Shown here piece after piece: positions 3,786 through 8,992 of a stretch of DNA of 64,000 nucleotides (its first letter is position 1; each line of letters opens with the position of its first letter). The notes beneath the pieces are model-generated. The model ran no database searches and had not been told where the DNA came from. It worked only from the letters and a program-made list of their open reading frames with translations. This stretch comes from Chloracidobacterium validum (lineage in GTDB: Bacteria > Acidobacteriota > Blastocatellia > Chloracidobacteriales > Chloracidobacteriaceae). The stretch is from NCBI RefSeq assembly GCF_018304825.1, contig NZ_CP072648.1, forward strand, positions 2,463,501 to 2,527,500, given 5' to 3'. The position numbers and the translations under genes are program-made.

Positions 3786-4579
3786 CTAGTCCGGCGGCGC
3801 AAGCAAAGCCTGCAAGCGTCTGACCTCGGCTTCAAGCGCGGCTGCCCGCGCGGTAGCTTCCTCAGCTTGCGCCCGCGCCGCTTCCGCTTTGGCCTCAGCC
3901 GCTTCTAACTTGGCCTCGGCCGCTTCCGCGCGCGTCAGCACCAGCCGTCCGTCCGCATCGTAAAACCGTAACCAGCGGGTCTGGAGCGCGTGATACCGCC
4001 CTTCCCACGCTCCAACCCACACCCCAAGCTGGGCGCTCCACAACCACCCCTCCGCATTCGGCGCGATTGGTTCATACTGACCACGCACGAGTCCCCAACC
4101 CAGCAACTGCGGCGACGCTCCCTCGCTGGGGTCAGGCCCGTAGCAGTAATACTCCGCCGTCCGAAACACACGCTCATACAGCCGCTTCTTCTCGCCCAAG
4201 TCTGCACTCTGGGTCGAAGGTGACAGTAGCTCAACAATGACATCCGGCAACCGCCCATCCTCCTGCCACACCACCCACGACGGACGCGCGTAAAACCCAT
4301 CCACATCCTTCACCACGAAAAAATCCGGCCCTTTGTAATCCTTGTTCCGCACCTGCTGAAGGCTGTAGTAAACAAACATATTGCCGCCGGCGAAAAAGTC
4401 CGTCCGTCCCAAAGCTGGTGCAGGCAGTCGTCCAACAGGTTGATTTGCAACCGATGCCAGACATTTTCCAAGGGAATGCCATCCTCGTCAGGCAGTTCGA
4501 GCGCCAAAAGCTCGGCCACGTCAGGTTCGGCTGGTAACGCCGCTGGCACAATTTTGGCCGGTTCAACCTGGGGTGTCAT
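3786..4579 (-). pseudogene. Uma2 family (PD-(D/E)XK nuclease-like) gene broken by a frameshift
   Basis: Two overlapping reading frames together make one Uma2 protein. The 5' part (MTPQVEPAKIVPAALPAEPD..., start 4579) runs to QLWDGRT, and the family sequence DFFAGGNMFVYYS continues in another frame from about 4406. Adding one G to the GGG run at about 4408-4410 restores LW-GRTDFFAGGN, so a single-base deletion or a sequencing error explains the break. The 3' part holds the nuclease-like core with VIVELLSPST and the Lys-x-x-x-Tyr region, and a C-terminal coiled coil of AEAKAEAA-type repeats, as often seen in cyanobacterial and Chloroflexi relatives. The function of Uma2 proteins is not established. 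If the base is a sequence error the gene is intact. Confidence 0.75.
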
Positions 4580-4671: not shown

Positions 4672-5985
4672 CTATTGAAGCTCAATCGTGCAGTGCGGAA
4701 AGTGCGTTTGCAAGGCTTCCAATAGTTCTGGCGACGGACAAACGTTGAAGGACTGGTGAGCGCGGAGCCTGGCTTCCGCCCCGGAGGGAAGCGCCAATGC
4801 GAAAAGCACCGGGCGCTCCCCACGGTGCCGGTCAAGCACATCGCGGAGCTTTTCAAGCTGCCCGGCGTCGAGTGCGTTCGCCTGAAAGCGCAGGGTGAGA
4901 CTCCGAGCGTGGCGCTCACGGAGACCTTCAAGGGGTTCAGCCGTTTCAGCAATGATCTTCGTTGGCGTGGCGTCTTCGAGTTCAAGGCGTCCGGTGACCA
5001 GCACGGCCGCGCCGTCCGTGACTTTATCGCCGAGTCGTTTGAACGTTTCCGGCCACGCAATGACTTCGATGCTGCCGGTTTCATCCTCGAGCATGAACAC
5101 GGCGAAACGGTCGCCCTTTTTCGTATTCTTTACGGTGAAGGCGCTGACGACGCCACCCATGCTGACGGTTTCGCCCTGGGACTGGTGCGCAAGCTGGGCA
5201 TAGGACAGACTCCTGAGATTCGCCAGGGTTTCCCGGAAGGACGCCAGAGGGTGTCCTGTCAAATAAAACCCAAGCGTCGCCTTTTCACCGGCGAGGCGTT
5301 CTTTTTGCGTCCAGTCCGGGACGTTTGGAAGTGCGGTCGCTGGTGATTTGGCCGCGTCGGTCAGCATACCAAACAGCGAGGCCTGCCCGGCCGCAGCGTC
5401 GCGGTGCGCGCGTGCGCCTTGCTCCAGAGCGGCATCAATCGCGGCAAATTTTTGGGCCCGCGTTCCAGGCAGGCTATCAAACGCTCCTGATTTGATCAGG
5501 CTTTCCAGGACGCGCCGATTGAGGGCTTTGGGATCGACCCGCTCGGCGAAGTCAAAGAGTGACTCAAACGCTCCATCCTTCTCGCGGGCAGTCAACATGG
5601 CATCCACGGCGGCTTCGCCAATCCCTTTGATGGCCATCAATCCGAAACGGATTTGTCCGCCGGATGCGGTAAACCCATGCCGACTGATGTTGACATCTGG
5701 CGGCAGAATCTCGACGCCCTGTTCGCGCGCCCCCTCGATGTAGCGCGCAACTTTATCGCTGTCACCGAGTTCACTGGTGAGAACAGCGGCCCAGAAATGC
5801 GCTGGATAGTGCGCCTTGAGGTAAGCCGTCCGGTAGGCCAGTACGCCGTAGCACACCGAGTGACTGTTGGCCGTCAGGATGCCGTTGACAAAGTAGTTGT
5901 GCAGCGGCGCGCGCATTGTCACGTTGTATGTCGGCGCGACGCCAACCGGCGTTACACGGGCGATTTTGATTTCACGAAGCGACAT
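4672..5985 (-). CDS. dnaE: DNA polymerase III alpha subunit, C-terminal part, with N-terminal split-intein fragment
   Basis: A stand-alone gene for the C-terminal third of the replicative polymerase. From the ATG at 5985 the first 40 residues read as a C-intein (SLREIKIARVTPVG, then APTYNVTMRAPLHNYFVNG and ILTAN). DnaE sequence then starts abruptly at SHSVCYGVLAYRTAYLKAHYP, which matches the conserved SHS-Y-TAYLKAHYP segment. The DnaE part has 397 residues: a helix-hairpin-helix region (GLMAIKGIGEAAV), an OB-fold nucleic-acid-binding domain (about 255-340) and the C-terminal tau-binding type domain. The PHP and catalytic palm domains are absent. The gene upstream on the same strand is pdxS, so the N-terminal half must be encoded elsewhere. 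A TTG at 6003 is an alternative start. A functional polymerase would need protein trans-splicing. Confidence 0.88.
   Translation of the reverse strand: MSLREIKIARVTPVGVAPTYNVTMRAPLHNYFVNGILTANSHSVCYGVLAYRTAYLKAHYPAHFWAAVLTSELGDSDKVARYIEGAREQGVEILPPDVNISRHGFTASGGQIRFGLMAIKGIGEAAVDAMLTAREKDGAFESLFDFAERVDPKALNRRVLESLIKSGAFDSLPGTRAQKFAAIDAALEQGARAHRDAAAGQASLFGMLTDAAKSPATALPNVPDWTQKERLAGEKATLGFYLTGHPLASFRETLANLRSLSYAQLAHQSQGETVSMGGVVSAFTVKNTKKGDRFAVFMLEDETGSIEVIAWPETFKRLGDKVTDGAAVLVTGRLELEDATPTKIIAETAEPLEGLRERHARSLTLRFQANALDAGQLEKLRDVLDRHRGERPVLFALALPSGAEARLRAHQSFNVCPSPELLEALQTHFPHCTIELQ
5866..5985 (-). other. Putative C-terminal fragment of a split intein (40 codons)
   Basis: Residues 1-40 of the dnaE-C product. 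The order is: start Met, SLR-EIKIA (compare the M-IKIA opening of cyanobacterial DnaE C-inteins), a TYNVTM block F beta-strand, LHNYFVNGIL, and the terminal TAN before Ser+1. The final Asn needed for cyclisation is present. The penultimate residue is Ala rather than His, and cyanobacterial split DnaE inteins also lack His there (ASN). The +1 nucleophile is Ser of the DnaE motif SHS, three residues downstream of the cyanobacterial insertion point (Cys of CFNKSHS). The intein assignment is from motif reading only. Confidence 0.82.
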
Positions 5986-6127
5986 TGCGGAAGCCAGAGC
6001 CAATAGGGGTAAGGTGAACCAAGCCAGGCTTGCTTGGCCTCAAAGCATACGCAACGGCTTGGCTGCAAGTCCATCCCGGCGGGCGTCCGCATCCGAAGGG
6101 TTCCAGATGCAGACACCCGCCAGGTCG

Positions 6128-7018
6128 TTACCAACCGCGCGCGGCAAGGACCTGCTCGGCCGGCAGGGTTTCAATAGCAAGACCGCGCATGGGCTGGCCG
6201 TCTTCAATTTCCTCGCAGGCCTCCAGCACCTTGGCGGCATCTTGATAAAAGGTGACGGCTTTGACGATGGCGCGGGCAAAGCGCGCCGGATCGTTCGACT
6301 TGAACACGCCGGAACCGACGAAGACGGTTTCGGCGCCGAGGTGCATGCAGAGCGCGGCATCGGCGGGCGTCGCCACGCCACCCGCTGCAAACAGTGGCAC
6401 CGGCAACTTGCCATGGCGCGCCACCTGGCAAACCAACTCGTAAGGGGCTTGGAGCCGCTTGGCTTCGGCCATGAGTTCATCCTTGTCCAGAACCGTCAGC
6501 AAACGGATGTCGCGCCGGATTTCGCGCAAGTGCCGTACGGCTTCGATGATGTTGCCCGTTCCGGCTTCGCCCTTGCTCCGGATCATGGCAGCGCCTTCCG
6601 CAATCCGCCGCAGTGCTTCGCCCAAATTCGTGGCTCCACAGACAAAGGGAACGCGAAAAGCGAACTTATCAACGTGATGGTGCGGGTCGGCCGGCGTCAA
6701 GACCTCTGACTCATCAATGAAATCCACGCCAAGGGCTTCCAGAACCTGGGCTTCGGCAATGTGGCCGATGCGGACTTTGGCCATGACCGGAATCGAGACG
6801 GCTTCCATGATTTGGCGAATCATGCGCGGGTTCGACATCCGCGCCACGCCGCCGTCACGCCGGATGTCGGCCGGAACACGCTCCAGAGCCATGACGGCTA
6901 CAGCACCGGCTTCTTCAGCAATGCGGGCTTGCTCGACATTGACCACGTCCATGATGACGCCGCCCTTGAGCATTTCCGCCAAACCAGTCTTGAGTCTCAT
7001 CTGCTGTGTATCATCCAT
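6128..7018 (-). CDS. pdxS: Pyridoxal 5'-phosphate synthase subunit PdxS
   Basis: A 296-residue protein of standard PdxS length. With PdxT it makes PLP from ribose 5-phosphate, glyceraldehyde 3-phosphate and glutamine-derived ammonia. The chosen start ([17 protein letters not shown]) follows a GGAGGAAG ribosome-binding site about 8 bases upstream; the longer open frame upstream is not family-like. The catalytic lysine in VMAKVRIGH and the phosphate-binding [16 protein letters not shown] segment are present, as is [18 protein letters not shown]. No pdxT is next to it, so the glutaminase must be elsewhere or ammonia is used directly. About 140 bases separate it from dnaE-C downstream. Confidence 0.96.
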
Positions 7019-7166
7019 CAGGCGAACTTCCTCCAAAAAGACGCTGCGAATCGCTCTGTAACTTCGTTGTTCGCAAGCGCGGGGGTGCGCATTGCAATCC
7101 GGGACGGTACGCCCTCGCCCGACGGCGCGCAACGGCCATTCGACGGGAATTTGCAACCAATGCGAC

Positions 7167-8992
<1,826 letters not shown>

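Follow-up and report, generated by a model that had tools for sequence, protein, structure and literature searches.

How does Chloracidobacterium validum make its replicative DNA polymerase? The question is raised by a gene in the 64,000-nucleotide stretch analysed here (the window, G000:C1:2463501-2527500): dnaE-C, on the minus strand at 4672..5985, encodes a C-intein followed by only the C-terminal 397 residues of DnaE. The first-pass annotation, made from the sequence of the window alone, had read this gene as one half of a split-intein DnaE whose partner should lie elsewhere. We find that partner in the same genome, a 3.66 Mb assembly of two contigs that is 99.95% complete. DnaE is very probably made as two separately encoded precursors that are joined by trans-splicing, and the split probably derives from a mobile intein that carried an endonuclease.

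The two dnaE genes

The partner gene, dnaE-N, lies outside the window at G000:C1:1749513-1752284 on the minus strand, 715,888 bases from dnaE-C. It has the features that had been predicted for it: the PHP, polymerase alpha (palm) and finger domains are present, the DnaE part ends FADYAFNK, just before the SHS motif with which dnaE-C resumes, and an N-intein beginning CVTGDATLV... (Cys1) follows directly. This N-intein scores 37.6 bits against TIGR01445 (cut-off 24.5) and matches split DnaE inteins in the Protein Data Bank (PDB) with an E-value of 4.1e-6, while the Pfam intein model gives 15.9 bits on dnaE-N, under its cut-off of 35.8. The intein halves are on separate open reading frames (ORFs) and the break falls between blocks B and F, as defines a split intein.

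The ORF of dnaE-C spans 4672-6003 on the minus strand, with a possible in-frame TTG start at 6003 and an inner ATG at 5985. The start MSLRE is conserved in all seven genomes of the genus, and the gene end noted in the first-pass annotation coincides with this conserved start; read from ATG 5985, the protein has 437 residues. Residues 1-40 (5866..5985), MSLREIKIARVTP...FVNGILTAN, are the C-intein expected there, with blocks F and G, a penultimate Ala and a terminal Asn. It scores 105.7 bits against a ten-row C-intein profile of which it is itself one row. The next codon (5863..5865) encodes Ser +1, the expected trans-splicing nucleophile, which opens the SHS motif and the 397 DnaE residues. This C-extein (4675..5865) comprises the helix-hairpin-helix and OB-fold region of DnaE, with Pfam matches over cut-off to HHH_6 (PF14579, 112 bits) and the OB-fold (PF01336, 41.8 bits). 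NCBIfam DnaE models mostly start at the intein/SHS boundary (PRK05673 covers residues 47-438 of the 443-residue reading, E 1.5e-103); PRK07373, which we take to be a model of the cyanobacterial DnaE C-half, matches from residue 12, within the intein.

Could dnaE-C be a remnant, or the product of misassembly, with the true dnaE intact elsewhere? We regard this as practically excluded. A search of the whole genome with PF07733 (C-family polymerase alpha) gives a single match, within dnaE-N, so neither an intact dnaE nor a second C-family polymerase gene was found in this 99.95% complete assembly, and to the extent that the assemblies are complete the genome searches rule such a copy out. The same separation recurs in seven genomes of the genus, three of two contigs and four of many: the C-half occupies a frame of its own, 444-518 residues long, and the N-half another of 908-964 residues, with one match each in 7/7 genomes. 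The halves stand apart in the three two-contig genomes (G000, G001 and G005) and on different contigs in the four multi-contig assemblies.

Ratios of nonsynonymous to synonymous substitution (dN/dS, by NG86), which argue against a remnant, stay under 1 in all four segments wherever dS is defined. The comparison took in 21 genus pairs and one f4 pair (f3 and f4 denote related families); many dS values are near saturation, and two of the genus pairs have no defined dS for the N-intein. In the closest genus pair, G001-G005, the dN/dS terms are 0.016/0.122 for the N-intein and 0/0.101 for the C-intein. Three genes next to the C-half (6128-7228, 7167-7940 and 7937-8962) are found again in all six other genus genomes.

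Two neighbouring genes may be recorded here. Adjacent to dnaE-N is an ATPase gene that we identified by eye as BchX/BchL-like (locus L002, 6578-7462); it is near dnaE-N also in G001, G003 and G005. Directly 3' of dnaE-C, the window holds a Uma2-family ORF (PF05685, putative restriction endonuclease) at 3789-4412 on the minus strand; a copy of this kind stands 3' of dnaE-C in 3/7 genus genomes, the similar ones being in G001 and G005.

Splicing residues and the proposed reaction

All 15 copies of the intein studied in the genus and its relatives keep Cys1, the block B motif CT-x-x-H, the terminal Asn, Ser +1 and Lys/Arg at -1, and so carry the full residue set of a split intein (Cys/Ser1, TxxH, terminal Asn and Cys/Ser/Thr +1). 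The DnaE halves almost certainly work by trans-splicing. The DnaE-N precursor, its extein ending FADYAFNK, would carry the N-intein from Cys1, and the DnaE-C precursor the 40-residue C-intein with its terminal Asn and, after it, Ser +1. Once the two intein parts had associated, Cys1 would form a thioester, Ser +1 would take over the N-extein and the terminal Asn would cyclise, releasing a seamless ...FADYAFNK-SHS... DnaE with the predicted junction stretch GFADYAFNKSHSVCYGVLAYR. Splicing would presumably be essential in these organisms.

Three features sit less comfortably with this picture. The block F residue is Asn in 15/15 copies; position F:4 of inteins is most often Asp in the available text of PMC4031507, the equation of our Asn with F:4 being our own reading. 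The penultimate intein residue is Ala and not His, and the part of PMC5874633 at hand gives Ser or Ala at this position in cyanobacterial DnaE inteins. Finally, the N-half neighbours are only partly kept in the genus (a regulator gene at L002:2132-3496 in 4/6 genomes and the BchX-like gene in 3/6, with some flanks short).

The block F Asn where Asp is usual, together with the N-intein tail and one inner loop that differ in length among copies, would also suit a polymerase of two subunits held together non-covalently, in which the intein pieces no longer splice and serve as a docking device. We consider this very unlikely: docking alone would not require Cys1, T-x-x-H, the terminal Asn and Ser +1, and all four are kept in every copy.

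The insertion site and known inteins

Split DnaE inteins are known from cyanobacteria (Ssp and Npu), for which Wu 1998 and Caspi 2003 are reportedly the sources. Like the element described here, they are split between blocks B and F, belong to separate dnaE-n and dnaE-c genes, and have Cys1, TxxH and a penultimate Ala. The Hint-domain sequences are distant homologues: the uninterrupted intein of a relative, G009, matches Ssp DnaE with E 1.2e-9, and the solved DnaE inteins matched by the C. validum N-intein at the value given above are presumably the cyanobacterial split ones. The two groups differ in insertion site, nucleophile and host, and in relatives the split houses an endonuclease gene. 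According to the available text of PMC2664965, the residues at the Ssp DnaE junction are EY and CFNK; set against that Y|CFNK site, our junction YAFNK|SHS lies four residues downstream. The first-pass annotation was right that the site differs, but it had placed it three residues downstream. Its Ser nucleophile is borne out in 15/15 copies, where the cyanobacterial allele has Cys +1, and the host, one of the Acidobacteriota, does lie outside the cyanobacteria. The insertion is thus at FADYAFNK|SHS and not at Y|CFN, and uninterrupted relatives read F-A-D-Y-[AG]-F-N-[KR]-S-H at this place in 10/10 copies printed. We conclude that C. validum has a genuine split DnaE intein whose insertion site is its own and whose host is not a cyanobacterium; it is of the same kind as the cyanobacterial intein and a different allele.

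An origin by acquisition from cyanobacteria living in the same mats has some appeal, because the closest solved structures are DnaE inteins, and genus isolates come from microbial mats, an early enrichment having held a cyanobacterium (as stated in the text available from PMC8245765). The site four residues away and Ser +1 in place of Cys +1 speak against it, as do the closest sequences, which were found in other Blastocatellia by a search that covered no cyanobacterial genomes, the solved inteins being only distantly similar. We judge such an origin highly improbable.

Inteins in DnaE also occur in one piece. The Desulfonema ishimotonii intein is contiguous: dnaE there is made up of two neighbouring frames, one of which contains the intein (415 residues), and the authors state that this is not the case of separated proteins (PMC6390638, in the part available). 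Two IMG/VR viral contigs have inteins at exactly our FN[KR]|C...N|SH site, with one frame running through each intein: L127 (~8447) ends VVHN|SHSVSY and L128 (~6172) ends VTCN|SHAACY, and in a third contig with the junction pattern, L129, the stretch ends too soon to tell. A search for a viral source by C-intein similarity gave 37 pattern stretches, none of them confirmed. The same C-side junction, VVHN|SHAASF, closes an intein in a 1659-residue DnaE2-like frame, named by eye, in G058, another genome of the Acidobacteriota (L094 2471-7450); the N-side junction was not located there.

Relatives and the origin of the split

Of 162 genomes of the class, profile A1, made from ten C-inteins, matched 15 strongly (93.8-106.9 bits) and one weakly (31.2 bits). 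Across 396 genomes drawn evenly from the phylum, 7 had strong matches and 11 more had weak matches only, under 31 bits; six of the weak loci, including G058, could be read by eye and look like other inteins. A DNA pattern written independently for the N-junction, F-[AG]-[DE]-Y-[AG]-F-N-x-Cys, found the same 7 of the 396 genomes as the strong C-intein matches, and no match is tabulated for its reversed control in this set. Among genome_contigs (84,980 species), 7 of 15 pattern stretches were confirmed, all titled Acidobacteria, Blastocatellia or Chloracidobacterium; the scan used two narrow peptide patterns, so same-site inteins may exist in other phyla. The sister family in the same order (G010-G013) gave no match to profile A1, and four DnaE copies read there (L028, L020, L015 and L024) are uninterrupted, with FADYAFNRSHS. 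G008, a member of the same family as the genus, gave no match either, though the contig with its dnaE is truncated.

The 15 class genomes with the intein differ in how its parts are arranged (ARRANGEMENTS). The halves are dispersed in seven, which are the genus genomes. Five others (G025, G033, G498 at locus L065, G501 and G502) have the N-half, a LAGLIDADG ORF and the C-half in a row, and in each of these interrupted copies the endonuclease ORF overlaps both halves, with its start in the 3' end of the N-half and its stop across the C-half start. G014 keeps a 22-codon endonuclease remnant, consisting of about the first 15 codons and a stop that overlaps the ATG of the C-half, and its two halves are in one frame with a single TGA between them. 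In G007 a Uma2 gene (PF05685) lies between the halves, and G009, of the same family as the genus, has an uninterrupted intein in a 1670-residue DnaE that contains a second intein too.

That second, contiguous intein is present in DnaE-N of G007, G009 and G033 (L058, L057 and L061; 417, 341 and 418 residues, 61-65% identical), at a G[VI]|C[TV]YQEQ site ~70 residues upstream of K|SHS, so in G007 and G033 a complete DnaE would take one cis-splicing step as well as one trans-splicing step. Uma2 was considered as a homing partner and set aside: each of the five genomes searched contains between 5 and 50 members of the family (10 in the window genome), and with so many copies we take its presence near the dnaE halves as coincidence or its own mobility.

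The intervening gene has the features of a homing endonuclease. Two copies tested match PF14528 (LAGLIDADG_3) at 50.9 and 38.4 bits (cut-off 22.5), and three aligned copies show two motifs with invariant acidic residues. Its predicted fold, from 3 sequences, is of moderate confidence (pLDDT 72.3, pTM 0.65). The 50 PDB matches listed are homing endonucleases, maturases or inteins, at low TM-scores of 0.35-0.42 by query length; several are labelled LAGLIDADG, and the class of the rest is our assumption. An endonuclease profile matched 6/162 class genomes, five times between the halves and once, more weakly (79 bits), elsewhere.

Fractured genes, in which split inteins have an endonuclease gene between their halves, were reportedly described by Dassa 2009, with a nuclease family said to be different from the LAGLIDADG (PF14528) of the Blastocatellia relatives. 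The order of N-half, endonuclease ORF and C-half in the five interrupted copies is the same. The window genome differs in having no endonuclease gene between its halves, and no free-standing endonuclease gene matched at E 1e-10 in any of the seven genus genomes. A fractured-gene ancestry of the Chloracidobacterium split intein is likely. The ancestor would probably have been a mobile intein at the K|SHS site whose halves were separated by a free-standing LAGLIDADG gene; in the ancestor of Chloracidobacterium the endonuclease would have been lost and the two gene halves moved apart.

Alternatively, the split may have come directly from a contiguous, G009-like intein by rearrangement, and the endonuclease gene may have invaded split copies later. 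G009 is in the same family and has an uninterrupted intein, and two viral DnaE genes have contiguous inteins at the same site. We think this route rather unlikely, since the remnant and single TGA in G014 show that loss of the endonuclease from the fractured form does happen, and the G009 linker resembles the fractured form, so that G009 could be a re-fusion.

The intein has also likely been transferred between families. Mean intein/extein identity is 67.5/53.3% between f3 and f4 (intein higher in 9/9 pairs), 59.4/49.9% between G007/G009 and f4 (6/6), 54.0/50.0% between the genus and f4 (21/21), 89.0/80.7% within f4 (3/3) and 62.9/60.0% between G007/G009 and f3 (6/6). The extein is the more similar part within the genus (68.7/85.9%; intein higher in 1/21), between the genus and G007/G009 (50.4/68.8%; 0/14) or f3 (50.3/56.9%; 0/21), within f3 (73.7/78.6%; 0/3) and between G007 and G009 (60.8/80.9%; 0/1). 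The L065 N-extein in these comparisons is cut short by its contig. Because the intein is favoured in every comparison with f4, rapid change of the f4 exteins could explain the pattern instead of transfer. Extein data reject a clade of G033 with f4 (approximately unbiased (AU) test, p 8.3e-5), and intein data group G033 with f4 (88/92). On intein data alone, a single clade of f3 inteins is not rejected (AU p 0.166), which makes the phylogeny suggestive only and no proof of transfer.

We give an even chance to a scenario in which a mobile cassette of split intein and LAGLIDADG gene homes into dnaE at K|SHS and spreads between Acidobacteriota families, Chloracidobacterium having lost the endonuclease and relocated the halves, which left it with a fixed split replicative polymerase. 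Split dnaE would then have arisen a second time, independently of the cyanobacteria, and the intermediates would survive in living relatives. The order of events, fractured first and dispersed later, is not proved, as the intein tree is unrooted and G009 is uninterrupted.

Among the literature hits viewed we found no recognisable description of a split DnaE in Chloracidobacterium or other Acidobacteria, though older papers might mention one. The terms 'intein', 'dnaE' and 'DNA polymerase' are absent from the main text of the genus description (PMC8245765), and in PMC10151467 the word 'intein' refers only to a purification construct. 'DnaE' does not occur in PMC4071816. In its intein table, in the part available, a C. 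thermophilum B protein appears under rir1-b, an allele of ribonucleotide reductase, so another intein may be present in the genus. The genus has two replicons of about 2.7 and 1.0 Mbp and its isolates are described as thermophilic (PMC8245765, available text).

In a photosynthetic bacterium that is not a cyanobacterium, the replicative polymerase is encoded as two distant halves, each with half an intein. At a single site, the same intein family exists in related bacteria in four states (uninterrupted, endonuclease-interrupted, endonuclease-deleted and dispersed), which makes the route to a split testable, and the relatives show possible intermediate stages of how it arises. Natural Ser +1 split inteins from a genus with isolates described as thermophilic may also serve as tools for protein ligation.
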